Source of the DNA: Alphaproteobacteria bacterium US3C007
GTDB lineage: Bacteria > Pseudomonadota > Alphaproteobacteria > Rhodobacterales > Rhodobacteraceae
Direction of reading: 5' to 3'
Length of the DNA: 64,000 bases
Assembly: GCA_034423775.1 (NCBI GenBank)
Contig: CP139918.1
Span: 1,178,001-1,242,000 of the forward strand
Notes under the pieces: generated by a model
What the model saw: only the letters and a program-made list of their open reading frames with translations
What the model was told of the DNA's origin: nothing
Database searches by the model: none
Shown: positions 5,674 through 57,164 of the stretch, piece after piece
Position numbering within the stretch: the stretch's first letter is position 1
Layout of the letters: each line of letters opens with the position of its first letter
Program-made: the position numbers and the translations under genes

Positions 5674-5753
5674 ATCAGGCTTTTAATTGTGGTTTCAGCG
5701 CGGGGTTTAAAAACCGCCATGACGGCGCTTTAAAAGCGTGATAGGCGAGCCGA

Positions 5754-8003
5754 ATGAATGAGATTCCAAGCAAACGCCAAATTCTAGATTGGATTGCGGC
5801 CAATCCGACGCAAACCGCAAAACGCGATATTGCCAAAGCATTTGGCATAAAGGGCGCTGCGCGGGTTGATTTGAAAAAGCTTTTACGCAGCTTAGAGGCT
5901 GAGGGGCATCTGCAAAAGCGTAAGAAAACTTATCGTGATCCGGAAAAGCTGCCCCCTGTCAGCGTGGTGCAGGTTTTGCCGGCCACCAGCACTGGCGATT
6001 TGTTTGCCAAAGCGCTGGAATGGCAAGGCGATGGTATGGAACCCGCCATTTTATTGGTTATGAAAGCTTCTGATCCTGCGCTGGGCGCGGGTGATCGCAT
6101 TTTGGCCCGGCTCACCGAAATTGAGGGAGAAGGCTATCAATATGAAGGTCGCCTGATCCGCCGAATCGCCGCCAATCCAAGCCAGATCTTGGGGGTTTTC
6201 AGGCAAGCTGCGGAAGGGGGGCGCATCGTGCCCGTTGAGCGGTCGGGCAAAGAATGGCAGGTTGGTCCCAATGATGCCGGCGGCGCAAAAGATGGTGAAT
6301 TGGTTGAAGCAGAGCAAGCGGGCCCAAAATCGCGCATGGGATTGCCGCGCGCAAGGGTGATGACGCGTTTGGGGGATCCCTCTGCGCCAAAAGCGGTGTC
6401 TCTGATTGCAATTCACCAACATGATATCCCTGATCATTTCCCCGAAGATGTGGTGCATGAGGCCGAAGCGCAACGCGCGGCAGGGGTAGAGGGCCGCGAA
6501 GATTTGCGAGATATGCCCTTGGTCACCATTGATCCGGCGGATGCGCGCGATCATGATGATGCTTGCTATGCGCATGAGGATGACGCGGCTGATAATCCGG
6601 GCGGGCATATCATTTGGGTGGCGATCGCGGATGTGGCGCATTACGTACGGCCCAATTCAAACTTGGATCGTGAAGCCCGCAAGCGCGGCAATTCCACTTA
6701 TTTTCCAGACCGGGTGGTGCCGATGCTCCCGGATCATCTCTCGGGCGATTTGTGCAGCTTGCACGAAGATGTGCCACGGGCCTGTTTGGCGGTGCGGATG
6801 CAAATCAGCGCGGAGGGCGTGAAGCTAGGGCAAAGTTTTCACCGCGGTGTGATGAAATCCGCCGCGTCACTCACCTATGAAGAAGTGCAGTCGGCCTATG
6901 AGGGTGTTTCTATTAGCAAGCGCGCAGCGCCATTGTTAGAGCCTGTTATCAAGCCCTTATATGAGGCTTACGCCGCCTTGGTTCGGGCACGCGAAATTCG
7001 CCAACCTCTTGAGCTGGATCTGCCCGAACGCAAAATCATCTTGGATGAAGACGGGCAAGTGGCCTCGGTAAATTTTCGCGATCGTTTGGATGCGCATCGC
7101 TTGATTGAAGAATTTATGGTCTTGGCGAATGTGGCCGCTGCGGAGGCTCTGCAAGCCAAACAGGTGCCGCTTTTGTTTCGCGTGCATGAAGAACCTTCGC
7201 CCGAAAAGCTTGATGCGCTGCGTGAAACAGCGCAGGCGGCCGGGCTTAACTTGGCCAAAGGCCAAGTGTTGCAAACACGGCATTTAAACGCGCTGCTTAC
7301 GCAAGCTGAGGGCAAGGATGAAGCTGAACTCATCAATATGTCAACGTTGCGTTCAATGACGCAGGCTTATTACAGCCCGCAGAATTTCGGCCATTTTGGA
7401 TTGGCTTTGCGCTCTTATGCGCATTTTACCTCGCCCATTCGCCGCTATGCCGATTTGATCGTGCATCGGGCGCTTATTCGGGCGCATGGCTGGGGCAAGG
7501 ATGGGTTGAGCGCAGAAGAAGAGGCCCTGCTGGATGAGACTGCGCAGAAAATTTCCGATACAGAGCGGCGCTCAATGGTGGCAGAGCGCGATACGACGGA
7601 TCGGTATCTTGCCGCCTATTTGAATGAGCGCAAAGGCTCAGAATTTACCGCCCGGATCAGCGGCATTGCGAAATTTGGCGTGTTTGCGCGTTTGGATGAA
7701 AGCGGCGCTGAGGGGTTGATTCCTATCCGAACTTTAGGCCGCGAGTATTTTCATTATGACAAACAAACCAATAGCCTACTTGGTTCTGAGACAGGGCTTT
7801 TACTCAGTTTAGGGCAGGTTATTGAGGTAAGGTTAAGCGAAGTTATCGCAGAATCCGGTAGCGTTGCGTTTGAATTGTTAAGCGTCGAAGGCAACGCATT
7901 ACCCAAATCTGGGCGTAAAAATGCGCGCCCGGTAAAGCGCAAATTGGGCAAAGCGCGGAAAAAATCTGATAAGGTAAAGCGGAGCGTTAAACGAAAGCGT
8001 TAG
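5754..8003 (+). CDS. rnr: Ribonuclease R
   Basis: RNase R is a 3'-5' hydrolytic exoribonuclease that degrades structured RNA and takes part in rRNA and tmRNA-linked quality control. The 749-residue protein shows, in order, an N-terminal winged-helix RNA-binding segment (about 1-70), cold-shock/OB domains, the RNB catalytic domain with the Mg-binding run TIDPADARDHDDACYA near residue 260, AHFTSPIRRYADLIVHR near residue 560, an S1 domain (about 630-715, FTARISGIAKFGVFARL) and a very basic Lys/Arg tail typical of RNase R rather than RNase II. The start at 5754 is supported only by a weak purine-rich stretch (GGCGAG). The murein hydrolase-like gene begins six bases past the stop. Confidence 0.95.
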   Translation: MNEIPSKRQILDWIAANPTQTAKRDIAKAFGIKGAARVDLKKLLRSLEAEGHLQKRKKTYRDPEKLPPVSVVQVLPATSTGDLFAKALEWQGDGMEPAILLVMKASDPALGAGDRILARLTEIEGEGYQYEGRLIRRIAANPSQILGVFRQAAEGGRIVPVERSGKEWQVGPNDAGGAKDGELVEAEQAGPKSRMGLPRARVMTRLGDPSAPKAVSLIAIHQHDIPDHFPEDVVHEAEAQRAAGVEGREDLRDMPLVTIDPADARDHDDACYAHEDDAADNPGGHIIWVAIADVAHYVRPNSNLDREARKRGNSTYFPDRVVPMLPDHLSGDLCSLHEDVPRACLAVRMQISAEGVKLGQSFHRGVMKSAASLTYEEVQSAYEGVSISKRAAPLLEPVIKPLYEAYAALVRAREIRQPLELDLPERKIILDEDGQVASVNFRDRLDAHRLIEEFMVLANVAAAEALQAKQVPLLFRVHEEPSPEKLDALRETAQAAGLNLAKGQVLQTRHLNALLTQAEGKDEAELINMSTLRSMTQAYYSPQNFGHFGLALRSYAHFTSPIRRYADLIVHRALIRAHGWGKDGLSAEEEALLDETAQKISDTERRSMVAERDTTDRYLAAYLNERKGSEFTARISGIAKFGVFARLDESGAEGLIPIRTLGREYFHYDKQTNSLLGSETGLLLSLGQVIEVRLSEVIAESGSVAFELLSVEGNALPKSGRKNARPVKRKLGKARKKSDKVKRSVKRKR

Positions 8004-36590: not shown

Positions 36591-37619
36591 TTATTTTACG
36601 TCTAAGCCCATGGATTTATAGACGTCACGATATTGCTCGATCGCTGCATTGATCATGTCAATCGCTCCATCTGTATCGCGATAGCTGTCAATCACATTCA
36701 TGAATTTGCTATCGTTATAGGTTTGATAGCTGTCTTCGCAATAGGCGCGCTGAAAGGCCCATTTCAACCAGTCAACGCGGTCGGCAGGCGCGTCTTTATG
36801 TACATAAAAGCCGCGAAAGCGCAAAAGCGGTTCAAAATCCATACCCATTTCGACATGCGTTGGCACATCAGCAAATGCGGCGGGGCGCTCGTTGAATACG
36901 GTTAGGATTGGCTTGAAATTGCCCGCATCCAGAAAGTTGCGCACATCGCCTGGCTGCTCGAATAAAGCATCCACTTGACCGCCCAAAAGCGCGCCATAGC
37001 GCGGAGCTCCTTTGTCAAATGAGATCTGTTGGATCTGCATGTCCGAGGCCTCGGTGATAAATTTCATAATCACCCTTTCCATCGAACCTTCTTTTGACAC
37101 GTTGGCAATGGTTGCTTTGCCATCTTGAGCCTGAACCCATGCCACAAAGCTTGGCCAATCGGTGAAGCGTGTTTCATTGCTTCGAATATACACTTGCGAG
37201 AAGGTAACTTGTGAAATCACCAACGGAATCAGATCAACTGCCGGATTGGGTTTGCTCGAATCCAGCGCATGGGCTGAGGATGCATCATCAATATGTTCAA
37301 GAACTGTATAGCCGTCAGCAGGTGCTGACATATAGGCTGTCATTCCAACCGTACCGGATCCGCCTGGTTTGTGATCGCGGTTGATATTGACTGATGTCAA
37401 ACCGGTGACGGCTTCGGCCATTGCAGCTGCAACTTGGCCCGATCCACCACCAGGACCATAGGGAACCACCATGGTTAAAGCCCGCTCGGGAAAGCCACCG
37501 GGCTTGGCCATGCTGGCCTCGCTGACCCGGCATTCACCGGCAAAGCCCAAACTTGCCATACCGGTTAAGGCAGACGCGGTGAGGGCGATAGACAGCGTTC
37601 TTTTGAGTGTTATCTTCAT
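36591..37619 (-). CDS. TTT periplasmic substrate-binding protein, TctC/Bug family
   Basis: This 342-residue secreted protein starts with a signal peptide (MKITLKRTLSIALTASALTGMASLGFA). The mature part has PERALTMVVPYGPGGGSGQVAAAMAEAV, the Bug/TctC N-terminal motif, and a Bug-like second lobe with LLGGQVDALFEQPGDVRNFLD. It binds an organic anion in the periplasm and delivers it to TctA/TctB. It is the first gene of the operon, with a very strong AGGAGG-type site before its ATG and a candidate operator further upstream. The ligand cannot be read; sulfoacetate is inferred from sauST downstream. Confidence 0.9.
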   Translation of the reverse strand: MKITLKRTLSIALTASALTGMASLGFAGECRVSEASMAKPGGFPERALTMVVPYGPGGGSGQVAAAMAEAVTGLTSVNINRDHKPGGSGTVGMTAYMSAPADGYTVLEHIDDASSAHALDSSKPNPAVDLIPLVISQVTFSQVYIRSNETRFTDWPSFVAWVQAQDGKATIANVSKEGSMERVIMKFITEASDMQIQQISFDKGAPRYGALLGGQVDALFEQPGDVRNFLDAGNFKPILTVFNERPAAFADVPTHVEMGMDFEPLLRFRGFYVHKDAPADRVDWLKWAFQRAYCEDSYQTYNDSKFMNVIDSYRDTDGAIDMINAAIEQYRDVYKSMGLDVK

Positions 37620-37640
37620 TATTTCCTCCTCCTATTGATC

Positions 37641-54706: not shown

Positions 54707-55603
54707 TTAGCGCGTTTTCAGCCCGTTTTCCCGCGCTACAAAATCTACCAAATGGGGCACGTAATCCTCTGGGCCATCGCCACCCATGGCCATGGCGCGC
54801 GCAAAACTACTTTTCGCGGCATTTCCAATTGGATTTGCAATGCTTGCCTCATTGGCCATGCTTTCGAGATAGCGCAGATCTTTGAGCGCGTTGGTCATGG
54901 TGAATTTATGGGCCTCACGATTGCCATCCAGCGCGTAACCCATAAAGGTTTGATAAAACCCACAATCCATCCGGCTACCGCGGATCACGCTGTCAAAGCG
55001 CTTGGCATCAATTCCCATTTTAGCCCCTAAGGCCAGCGCTTCGGAATACATGGCGGCATAGCCCAGCGATAGAAAATTATTTAGCAATTTCATACGGTGG
55101 CCATCGCCAACCGCGCCGATATGCACGAGCGTTGCAGCCCAGCTTTCGATCACTGGTTTGATCCGCGCAAAAACCGGCTGATCGGCGCCCACCATCGCAG
55201 ATAGCGCGCCCTCTTCTGCTTGCACCGGCGTGCCCCCTAACGGGGCATCCACCATATGAATGCGCTTTGATTTCAAATTTTCTGCTAGTTTTAGGGTGGA
55301 GGTGGGGTCGGATGTTGAGCAATCGATGATAACGGCGTTTTCTGACAGATTAGGGGTGAGTTCCGCGATAATCTGTTCGACCTGAGGCGAACCTGGGGCA
55401 CAGATGAATACCAGCGTTGAGCCTTTGGCCAGCGCTTCTAGGCTGCCGGCCTCTTGCGCGCCCAGCGACAGCAGATTTTCAACCGGCACGCGGTTTTTAT
55501 GCGCGATTACGGTCACAGGATATCCCGCGCGTAAAATATTTTTGGCCATGCCATGGCCCATCAGGCCCACGCCGATAAATCCAATTTTTTCGTTTTGCTG
55601 CAT
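54707..55603 (-). CDS. Beta-hydroxyacid dehydrogenase, 3-hydroxyisobutyrate dehydrogenase-like
   Basis: This 298-residue NAD(P)-dependent dehydrogenase starts with the Rossmann fingerprint IGFIGVGLMGHGMAKNI, has the substrate-binding VDAPLGGTPVQAEEG near residue 120 and the catalytic Lys in GDGHRMKLLNNFLSLG near residue 172. The family covers 3-hydroxyisobutyrate, tartronate semialdehyde and 6-phosphogluconate-like reactions; the exact substrate is open. It stands alone on the minus strand, downstream of the putative small RNA gene on the same strand. Confidence 0.88.
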   Translation of the reverse strand: MQQNEKIGFIGVGLMGHGMAKNILRAGYPVTVIAHKNRVPVENLLSLGAQEAGSLEALAKGSTLVFICAPGSPQVEQIIAELTPNLSENAVIIDCSTSDPTSTLKLAENLKSKRIHMVDAPLGGTPVQAEEGALSAMVGADQPVFARIKPVIESWAATLVHIGAVGDGHRMKLLNNFLSLGYAAMYSEALALGAKMGIDAKRFDSVIRGSRMDCGFYQTFMGYALDGNREAHKFTMTNALKDLRYLESMANEASIANPIGNAAKSSFARAMAMGGDGPEDYVPHLVDFVARENGLKTR

Positions 55604-55750
55604 GCCAACCTCTTTTCTGAAATTTTATGTGTGCATTAATCGTTAAATCAGGTTGCATCGCAAGGGCTTCTTACGCCTAAAGGCGATTGCCTTTGCCCCT
55701 GTTGATGGGGTTTACGGACAGCATACCCCTTAATTGTTGTGACTCGCCCC

Positions 55751-55780
55751 AAAAAAAGAGACGCTATTTCTAGCGTCTCG
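55751..55780 (-). terminator. Rho-independent terminator of the putative small RNA
   Basis: A 9-base-pair stem (GAGACGCTA with TAGCGTCTC, loop of four) is followed on the minus strand by seven T residues. No protein-coding gene precedes it closely on this strand, which points to a short non-coding transcript. Confidence 0.85.
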
Positions 55781-55846
55781 AGATACCGAATAATCTGGGA
55801 GGATATATTTTCGGTTTTTACGATCTGGGAGGAGGTAGACCGTACT
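55751..55846 (-). ncRNA. Putative 'cuckoo'/CcsR-type small RNA with CCUCCUCCC anti-Shine-Dalgarno loop
   Basis: Read on the minus strand, three hairpins follow in order. The first (55821-55842) pairs CGGTCT with AGATCG and presents the loop ACCTCCTCCC, complementary to a full Shine-Dalgarno sequence. The second (55786-55814) pairs CCGAA with TTCGG and presents a shorter CCTCCC. The third (55751-55780) is a Rho-independent terminator. A loop carrying CCUCCUCCC ahead of a terminator is the hallmark of the CcsR/cuckoo RNA family of alphaproteobacteria, which are stress-induced in Rhodobacter. The 5' end is not known; a further hairpin TTTCTGC/GCAGAAA stands at 55863-55879. No DUF1127 gene, the usual upstream partner, is visible. 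Confidence 0.72.
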
Positions 55847-56111
55847 CTATTGGTACCATATCTTTCTGCACCGCAGAAATACTTATTTTGAATTGCTGCT
55901 ATGCAGAAAAATCATAGCTCATACATAATCATCCGTGGTTTTGTGCAGATAGGGGAAGGAATGCGTGAATTTTATGCAGCGAAAACCTTTATCTGGGTAT
56001 GTGCGAATTTAGCGCGCAAGCCTTCGGGCGGATCTGCTGCGCAGATCCTGGCTGGGGTACAGAATCGCGCCCTATTTTCGGACGCACCATAATGGCCCAG
56101 CCCCCCACTTT
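55847..56111. other. Intergenic region upstream of the putative small RNA
   Basis: About 265 bases between the putative RNA and the end of the methyltransferase gene, likely to contain the RNA promoter. I see a small hairpin at 55863-55879 but no clear promoter boxes and no small protein gene. Confidence 0.5.
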
Positions 56112-57164
56112 TTAGGTGATGAGGTATAAAGAATTGAGCGGGTGCTTGATATTAATTTTCTGCACCTCAGAAAACCCTGCCTCGGCGCAGAGGTTGCGCA
56201 ACACAGAATCGGAGAGACCCACCGTTCCCATACCTTCTCCGCCCTGCCACATTGAGGTGGTCATACAAAAATGTAGACTGATGCCCAATTTAAACACGCC
56301 ATACGGGCCTGAATTATCAACCGGATCTTCTGTGGCTTCGATATCCATCAGCAAAAACATCCCATCCTGGGCCATAGAATGTTTCAGGGTTCTTAAGCCA
56401 AGCGCCGGGTTTGGCAGATCGTGAATTAAATCAAACGTGGCGACAATATCATATTGGCCCGGGCTGCCTTCATCCATATTCCAATGTTTAAATGTGATAT
56501 TACGGTCAACGCCAGCCTCTTTTGCGTTGACGCCGGCCTGTTCTATATTTGGCGAGAATGCATCATAGCCAATAAATTCTGACTCGGGAAATAGCTTCGC
56601 CAACTCAATCGTGGACCTGCCCGTACCGCAGCCAAAATCGGCAAATCTGGCGCCTTTTTTTAAGCGCTGCGTCAACGCTGGGATATGGGGCAACCAATCT
56701 TTTACCAAGAAATTACGATACCGCGCGCAGCCCGTGTGATCCAGCGCCTGCCAAAGCGCTGGCGGATAATCTTCAAACCCGACGCCGCCACCAGATTTGA
56801 AGGCCTCGCGCAGCTTTTCATAGGGCAATAACGCGCTGTTCAGCAATTTAAAGGCACCATATTGGGCAAAGCGGCCGCCGTCTTCCACCAATAGCTGTGC
56901 TTGATCTGGGCTTAGCCAGGCTTCGCGCGTGGCTTTATCAAACATCACATAGCCGCTGAGCACGATCCCGTGCAGCCATTCGCGAACATAACGTTCGTTT
57001 AATTGCAGGCGCGCTGCCAGTTGCGCTGAGGTAGAGCGCCCGTGTGTGTGCAAATCTTTAAAAAGCCCCAGTTCAATACCAAGACTGCACAGCCGCACTG
57101 AGACGGCCCCCGCCATATCCCTTCCGGCTTGTTCCAACAGGGCTTTGGGTTTTGTATCGCTCAT
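56112..57164 (-). CDS. SAM-dependent methyltransferase with N-terminal winged-helix domain
   Basis: This 350-residue protein has an N-terminal winged-helix dimerisation region (about 15-90; AAQLAARLQLNERYVREWLHGIV is in line with the STSAQLA lead) and a class I Rossmann methyltransferase domain with motif I FADFGCGTGRSTIELAK near residue 175, and FIGYDAFSPN and DIVATFDLIHDLPNP as later motifs. It is of the type often annotated as transcriptional-regulator-linked methyltransferase (Rv2258c-like); the small molecule methylated is unknown. It is transcribed leftwards; the 265 bases after its stop lead to the putative small RNA. Confidence 0.85.
   Translation of the reverse strand: MSDTKPKALLEQAGRDMAGAVSVRLCSLGIELGLFKDLHTHGRSTSAQLAARLQLNERYVREWLHGIVLSGYVMFDKATREAWLSPDQAQLLVEDGGRFAQYGAFKLLNSALLPYEKLREAFKSGGGVGFEDYPPALWQALDHTGCARYRNFLVKDWLPHIPALTQRLKKGARFADFGCGTGRSTIELAKLFPESEFIGYDAFSPNIEQAGVNAKEAGVDRNITFKHWNMDEGSPGQYDIVATFDLIHDLPNPALGLRTLKHSMAQDGMFLLMDIEATEDPVDNSGPYGVFKLGISLHFCMTTSMWQGGEGMGTVGLSDSVLRNLCAEAGFSEVQKINIKHPLNSLYLIT

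Follow-up and report, generated by a model that had tools for sequence, protein, structure and literature searches.

In cuckoo RNAs, two to four hairpins share a conserved loop motif while their stems vary (PMC4504443), and in R. sphaeroides, where an RpoHI/HII promoter is described for ccaF1-CcsR, CcsR1-4 are cut from a DUF1127 mRNA (PMC10253847). This raises the question of what an RNA of this type is, what controls it, and which mRNAs it would bind where no DUF1127 gene stands beside it. One such locus lies on the minus strand of a 64-kb window (the whole stretch of DNA analysed, G000:C1:1178001-1242000) in the 3.62-Mb host genome, G000. We think it likely that the locus is an independent two-hairpin anti-Shine-Dalgarno (anti-SD) small RNA gene of the CcsR/cuckoo type, which came about when a DUF1127-cuckoo operon was duplicated and the protein gene was lost, is activated by a LysR-type regulator, and lowers the binding proteins of importers. 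Computation directly shows the RNA architecture, the homology to units of other genera, three sister copies, and a promoter element in common with DUF1127-cuckoo operons; the last two, together with the class of targets, are new relative to a preliminary description of the same DNA.

The molecule is of an ordinary kind, and its setting is informative. It is a satellite of the DUF1127-cuckoo operon that lacks a protein gene and has the operon's control element and importer-fitting loops, its transcription, regulator, and targets being predicted. Two points become testable here: (i) control of CcsR/cuckoo RNAs by something other than RpoH and (ii) RNA function without a DUF1127 partner. As this copy occurs naturally behind the same element but without the protein, the role of the RNA can be told apart from that of DUF1127.

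Architecture of the RNA locus

The following features, all on the minus strand, describe the locus. Column counts refer to an alignment of four genomes of the host genus.

55751..55848, minus strand: small RNA gene of ~94-98 nt, with the U-tract as its 3' end and an inferred 5' end (fold, covariance-model match, 4/4 genus genomes)
55819..55844, minus strand: hairpin 1, 8 bp, UACGGUCU-ACCUCCUCCC-AGAUCGUA with loop ACCUCCUCCC (fold, 24/26 columns identical)
55827-55835, minus strand: anti-SD motif CCUCCUCCC in the loop of hairpin 1
55785..55815, minus strand: hairpin 2, outer stem ACCGAA/UUCGGU, apical part UCCUCCCAG (fold, 30/31 columns identical)
55797-55803, minus strand: shortened motif UCCUCCC in hairpin 2
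55751..55779, minus strand: intrinsic terminator, 9-bp stem GAGACGCUA-GAAA-UAGCGUCUC, then U7 (pattern scan, fold, 22/22 stem-loop columns identical)
55855..55860, minus strand: possible -10 hexamer TATGGT (TATGTT in G001 and G002), with no good -35 seen, as read from the sequence and alignment
54707..55603, minus strand: 3-hydroxyisobutyrate-dehydrogenase-like gene, downstream of the RNA
56112-57164, minus strand: methyltransferase gene, upstream of the RNA

For the 94-nt RNA, the folding energy is -28.8 kcal/mol, whereas shuffled sequences average -13.05 +/- 3 (z -5.25), and 0 of 200 shuffles were as good. Folded alone, the terminator was likewise equalled by 0 of 200 shuffles and hairpin 1 by 1 of 200, while hairpin 2 was weaker (6 of 200). 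A pattern scan of positions 55500-56300 also recovered the terminator, and no sigma-70-type promoter was found in that stretch. The two anti-SD hairpins and T-tailed terminator that the preliminary description had placed on the minus strand are confirmed by sequence and fold, with loop 1 as written there, and the observation of a predicted anti-SD small RNA gene at 55751..55848 stands. The same description saw no gene around the RNA, which is right for the 508-nt intergenic gap (55604-56111) but not for its edges, where same-strand genes flank the RNA on both sides.

Conservation within the genus

A comparison of the locus in relatives had been proposed earlier, and it found the hairpins conserved in 4/4 genus genomes (one of the same species as the host), all with two TCCTCCCAGAT copies 30 nt apart at the RNA locus. 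Upstream of the RNA, a 22-nt box, CTGCATAGCAGCAATTCAAAAT, is identical in 22/22 columns and a palindrome in 16/17, whereas the linker preceding hairpin 1 is identical in only 8/18. The flanks, which include coding ends, show 83% (352 nt) and 86% (242 nt) identity, and the RNA, box, and terminator are thus conserved above their flanks in the four genomes. In G001, a G-U pair of hairpin 1 has become A-U with pairing kept, and the stem is 9 bp long there.

These data bear on two other readings of the locus. A 13-codon frame (ATG GTA CCA ... TAA) runs through hairpin 1 and is open and of equal length in the four aligned orthologues, as a small protein gene would require. However, its first codons fall in the least conserved stretch, the linker, and differ among orthologues, and no such frame was seen by eye in the sister copies described below, so that a small protein gene appears extremely improbable. 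The locus might also be a non-functional relic of a duplicated DUF1127-cuckoo operon, as the weak core promoter, the shortened loop 2, and the missing protein gene would suggest. Conservation above the flanks in four genomes and the pair-keeping change in G001 argue against this, and we consider a relic very unlikely.

A DNA similarity search (blastn) found the RNA in 3 of 61 genomes, all of the host genus, and in none of the 58 genomes outside it. The closest named relatives of the neighbouring dehydrogenase belong to the Rhodobacteraceae (records of its own genus possibly being left out), and 80 loci around dehydrogenase relatives in other genomes (598,994 bases) held no doubled TCCTCCC motif at a distance of 14-46 nt. 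Among 295 family genomes, a doubled CCTCCCAGAT pattern occurred in 3: the host, with this RNA and one sister (P2), and the GC-rich G094 and G164.

Relationship to DUF1127-linked units of other genera

To place the RNA in a family, 120 family genomes were searched for the doubled motif CTCCTCCC-N16-46-TCCTCCC, with the backwards pattern as control. The pattern matched in 105/120 genomes and the control in 43/120 (counted by hand); single matches are therefore no proof. Thirty doubled-motif loci were fetched, each from a different genus, and 22 of them have a DUF1127 open reading frame within 700 nt upstream on the same strand (local HMM, for which six loci supplied seeds). Fourteen of these 22 hold 4-14 motifs, and several of the 8 loci without DUF1127 look like chance matches. 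Three loci of other genera (L159, L172, and L173) with doubled hairpin motifs, no DUF1127 upstream in the fetched DNA, and no promoter box (see below) at up to one mismatch are possible further orphans.

For the covariance model, five loci were left out by hand (L157, L161, L171, L173, and L176), four offered no suitably spaced pair of motifs (L168, L178, L182, and L184), and four of the 21 aligned were dropped as misaligned (L158, L177, L180, and L183). The resulting 17 two-hairpin units, 15 of them from loci with DUF1127 and none being R. sphaeroides CcsR itself, support 15 of 18 consensus pairs by at least one sequence in which both sides have changed and the pair is kept. With both strands of the 64-kb window searched and filters off, the model gave a single significant match, at 55844-55781 (E 0.001, the next at 2.1), and the three orthologues scored between 0.0006 and 0.0016. 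The RNA is homologous to the two-hairpin units of other genera and is a diverged CcsR/cuckoo relative; its shortened loop 2 and lack of a DUF1127 gene make it a variant of these units.

Membership in the CcsR/cuckoo type, as suggested beforehand, is therefore supported by the model built from other genera. Rfam gave 0 matches at gathering scores in the window, for AbcR/SuhB and all other families, and at E up to 5 in 55000-57000 its single match was a miRNA model far below the cut-off, near but not over the RNA. The absence of the usual protein partner also holds: our local model found no DUF1127 in the window, and all four DUF1127 matches of the host genome lie outside it. In contrast, the second hairpin had been called extra, and this does not stand. 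Units normally hold a pair, as in the other-genus model and in RS0680a of R. sphaeroides with its two stem-loops (PMC3927594), and cuckoo RNAs have 2-4 hairpins (PMC4504443).

The RNA shares with CcsR1-4 and other Rhodobacteraceae cuckoo units the two anti-SD stem-loops per unit and the homology seen with the covariance model and the promoter element. We take CcsR1-4 to be the same RNAs as RS0680a and its homologues. It differs from them in having no adjoining DUF1127 gene, in being a single unit instead of an array, and in its own terminator hairpin; its loop flank reads AGAU instead of the usual UGRG, and its loop 2 is shortened. The CcsR position directly downstream of a DUF1127 gene is thus not found here. 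Its two hairpins and variable, pairing-kept stems agree with the cuckoo family (Reinkensmeier and Giegerich 2015) as defined in PMC4504443. The motif CCUCCUCCC, present in each hairpin loop of SmelA075/SmelA099 (PMC3927594), is intact in loop 1 only, hairpin 2 having UCCUCCC.

Sister RNAs in the host genome

Besides this RNA, the host genome holds three sister RNAs:

P1, G000:C1 ~38.7 kb (L037 1650-1724): directly behind a DUF1127 gene
P2, L028 ~8396-8288, minus strand: stands alone
P3, L029 ~5684-5787, plus strand: follows a GCV_T-family gene, 2.4 kb after another DUF1127 gene

The gene before P3 is presumably dmdA-like. All three sisters fold as two hairpins, P2 and P3 with their own terminator and P1 folded without one, and the stems of the four RNAs differ in sequence but fold alike. 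The covariance model gave E values of 3.7e-6 for P1, 0.0015 for P3, and 0.01 for P2. An exact 11-mer search recovered P3 from each of the four genus genomes but P2 from just two, G000 and G321.

The sisters also bear on whether the RNA could be a cis-acting leader (attenuator or riboswitch) of the dehydrogenase-like gene at 54707..55603. In that case the terminator would either halt transcription or let it run on into the gene, with the CU-rich loops as sensors of ribosomes or a ligand. The gene is on the same strand, its start is 147 nt from the U-tract, and the terminator is strong and conserved. However, P2 and P3 have the same architecture and precede other genes, the genes following the three RNAs being different and unrelated. 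Furthermore, the 80 loci around dehydrogenase relatives of other genomes lack the doubled TCCTCCC, no alternative antiterminator was noticed (no dedicated search was made), and the family is otherwise linked to DUF1127 and not to a dehydrogenase gene. A cis-acting leader is therefore quite unlikely, and the differing genes behind this RNA, P2, and P3 suit action in trans.

Two long hairpins with the same loop, CTCTCCTCCCAAACAGAG, each lie ~200 nt upstream of an orphan sister: L029 5467-5514 (plus strand) before P3 and L028 ~8620-8576 (minus strand) before P2. Both are single, with no U-tract behind, and have covariance-model E values of 0.26 and 2.2 and folds of -26.1 and -16.1 kcal/mol, respectively. 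The sequence CCTCCTCCC occurs at 7 places in the host, one being this RNA; no second motif was found near the six others, all of which were read and five folded. One of these six lies 2.5 kb from P2, and another (L032 ~1747, minus strand, G000:C1:2298246-2298254) belongs to a long hairpin (-20.8 kcal/mol) that falls within an open frame of 433 codons.

A promoter element shared with DUF1127-cuckoo operons

Upstream of the RNA, three further features were found:

55882..55916, minus strand: promoter element common to DUF1127-cuckoo operons (DNA HMM of 20 other-genus loci, exact match)
55889-55904, minus strand: core of this element, GCATAGCAGCAATTCA
55863..55879: palindrome, TTTCTGCACCGCAGAAA on the plus strand, with a CTGC-N3-GCAG core at 55866, 30 bp from one at 55896

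In the host, GCATAGCRGCANTNCA occurs with at most one mismatch at six places, against one for the backwards control. It is exact before P1, this RNA, and P2 and has one mismatch before P3 and 144 nt upstream of the domain match in DUF1127 gene 2, while the sixth place is inside an apparent coding region, ftsA-like by eye. Among the cuckoo loci of other genera, the box (at most one mismatch, on the strand of a motif and no more than 900 nt upstream of it) was present in 20/30, against 1/30 on the opposite strand of the whole locus; it was found in 20 of the 22 loci with DUF1127 and in 0 of the 8 without.

An 80-bp DNA HMM built from these 20 elements was run on the window and nine other host loci. 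Its best match in the window is the one before this RNA (55916-55882, E 0.0012; the next at 0.45). E values were 1.7e-14 for P1, 1.7e-7 for P2, 7.9e-7 for DUF1127 gene 3, and 2.9e-5 for DUF1127 gene 2, with a marginal match for P3 (0.12) and none at DUF1127 gene 4. The element precedes this RNA, two sisters, and three of the four DUF1127 genes. Judged by sequence, the RNA seems to have kept the control switch of the DUF1127 operon and lost the protein gene, and the simplest and most likely history would be that the operon was duplicated and the protein gene lost, with promoter and RNA kept.

A typical CcsR RNA would instead be processed from a stress-induced, RpoH-driven precursor and act on C1 metabolism and general stress defence, not on importers. 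CcsR1-4 of R. sphaeroides arise in this way (PMC10253847, PMC8625941), and the covariance-model homology fits as well. Nevertheless, the window is without a DUF1127 gene, the RNA has its own terminator and the shared box directly around it, and the -10-like part of the family element is not retained. We therefore regard a typical CcsR as unlikely.

CTGC-N3-GCAG has four sites in the whole window, two of them the pair 30 bp apart before the RNA. Paired sites in such spacing fit tandem binding by LysR-type proteins, and these two would suit tandem sites of such a protein. A third TTTCTGCACC-type palindrome, 94% like that before the RNA, is located at 56157-56173 at the end of the methyltransferase gene; it was not recovered by the promoter HMM.

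A candidate regulator

The element resembles the published box of VtlR/LsrB, which are LysR-type regulators. TGCA-N6-GCAT, the motif reported for LsrB at NfeR1 (PMC10746234), occurs in 16/20 other-genus elements. Compared with the Brucella VtlR box as quoted in PMC12595884, the family element matches a mean of 12.8/15 positions, and none of 2000 shuffled motifs was as good (mean 8.4, maximum 11.5). This RNA's own box matches 11/15 positions of the Brucella 15-mer, has no exact TGCA-N6-GCAT, and reads GCAT-N3-AG-N3-T against GCAT-N3-TG-N3-T in the VtlR/LsrB form.

Control of anti-SD RNAs by VtlR/LsrB has been reported (PMC7486931, PMC8844928, PMC10746234), and in Brucella DUF1127 genes are also under VtlR control (PMC12595884). 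This circuit has been described in Brucella, Agrobacterium, and Sinorhizobium for AbcR RNAs and DUF1127 genes. Common to both cases would be a single LysR-type regulator of anti-SD RNAs, which in Brucella also acts on DUF1127 genes (PMC7486931, PMC8844928, PMC12595884), and its box is similar to the family element. The circuit has been studied in Rhizobiales, to which LsrB is held to be unique (PMC11975290), whereas this RNA is from Rhodobacteraceae, has no Rfam match, and has a putative link to the regulator. One candidate for the regulator, a LysR gene 2.6 kb from P2, was rejected: its best PDB match is of the BenM type (1.2e-19), and 9hh1, which is LsrB according to PMC11975290, reaches only 2e-8.

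A second likeness is to NfeR1/alpha-r14 of rhizobia, also a stand-alone RNA with anti-SD hairpins, importer mRNA targets (predicted in our case), and a LysR-type box upstream (putative in our case) (PMC10746234). NfeR1 carries CCUCCUCCC in all three of its hairpins and has a clear sigma-70 promoter, whereas this RNA has two hairpins, one motif shortened, and no clear promoter (PMC10746234 for NfeR1).

A circuit of LysR regulator, DUF1127 protein, anti-SD RNA, and nutrient importer is known from Rhizobiales. As a tentative extension, to which we give somewhat less than an even chance, DUF1127-cuckoo operons across Rhodobacteraceae and their protein-free satellite RNAs may form one LysR regulon with VtlR/LsrB-like recognition. 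The circuit would then be common to both orders, and in this genus the RNA half would have been uncoupled from the protein half and the loop flank retuned (UGRG to AGAU) toward CUGGGAGGA importer start sites. A literature search, which did not take in the founding papers on cuckoo, CcsR, and CcaF1, found no report of a shared box of such kind in Rhodobacteraceae, and this is no proof of novelty.

Predicted targets

The best predicted target in the window is the following gene:

36591..37619, minus strand: tctC-like substrate-binding protein gene (Pfam TctC)
37625-37633: Shine-Dalgarno sequence (SD) AGGAGGAGG of this gene

Pairing of the RNA loop with tctC had been suggested in the preliminary description. 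The gene indeed ranks first of 50 candidate genes in the window (-20.0 kcal/mol; next -15.7, median -10.25), and its SD lies 3 nt off the position given there. All pairing energies are for the best loop and do not include the cost of opening hairpins.

The loops match CTGGGAGGA start sites, and in the host CTGGGAGGA-N3-10-ATG occurs at 11 places. All six open reading frames of at least 300 aa behind CTGGGAGGA encode substrate-binding proteins (Pfam TctC, NMT1, SBP_bac_8 twice, DctP, and NMT1_3), while four of the 11 places open nothing longer than 39 aa. One CTGGGAGGA start site belongs to a 57-aa frame that is closely followed, in the same orientation, by genes of the DctP, DctQ, DctM, and histidinol-dehydrogenase families (L036 5107-9760, G000:C1:3378106 on), a group that we take to resemble a sulfonate (DHPS) uptake group. 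Beyond the host, the pattern was present in 18/18 genomes tried, with 138 places summed, 127 of them outside the host. Twenty-nine of these, from 17 genomes, were fetched, and their 19 open reading frames of at least 150 aa comprise 11 substrate-binding proteins, 2 other transporter subunits, and 6 others. With the looser pattern CTGGGAGG, the 80 dehydrogenase-relative loci gave three open reading frames over 150 aa, none resembling binding proteins.

A control SD, AAAGGAGGA, has 4 places in the host, and both open reading frames over 150 aa there also encode substrate-binding proteins. Strong SDs therefore mark substrate-binding genes in general, and in view of this result we hold less firmly that CTGGGAGGA by itself singles out importer genes, extra specificity from the CTGGG flank being possible. 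By pairing energy, the six genes of at least 300 aa range from -18.2 to -21.5 kcal/mol and the 57-aa frame reaches -23.5 kcal/mol, compared with -13.9 and -10.9 kcal/mol for the two control genes; the best pairing of all (-26.9 kcal/mol) is at a site opening only 18 aa.

From these predictions, the RNA probably silences nutrient-uptake genes. In a reporter test, two mRNAs for components of periplasmic transporters were silenced by NfeR1, which has the same motif in three hairpins (PMC10746234). In the mechanism that we propose, the RNA would be switched on from the two sites 30 bp apart by a LysR-type regulator that is of the VtlR/LsrB kind or recognizes DNA in a similar way. Via CCUCCUCCC and UCCUCCCAGAU, the ~98-nt RNA would then pair with AUCUGGGAGGA-like ribosome-binding sites and block translation initiation, so that substrate-binding proteins of TRAP, TTT, and ABC importers would be lowered when the regulator's signal is on. 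The shortened loop 2, the weakness of hairpin 2 alone, the poor core promoter, the 11/15 match to the VtlR box, and the marginal P3 element count against this explanation. So do the reported restriction of LsrB to Rhizobiales (PMC11975290), the substrate-binding genes behind the control SD, and the results outside the host, where only 11 of 19 frames behind CTGGGAGGA and none of the three behind CTGGGAGG are of this class. The predicted targets (TRAP, TTT, and ABC substrate-binding proteins and the 57-aa frame of the TRAP group) would tie the RNA to organic-nutrient uptake.

A 16-mer of hairpin 2, ATATATCCTCCCAGAT, recurs at L035 ~4876 (G000:C1:3123875), followed by a terminator-like repeat, in a region that looks prophage-like by eye. 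The opposite strand of this 16-mer forms a perfect SD in front of an 18-aa frame (-26.9 kcal/mol). The recurrence may reflect chance, a sponge, or a stray copy.
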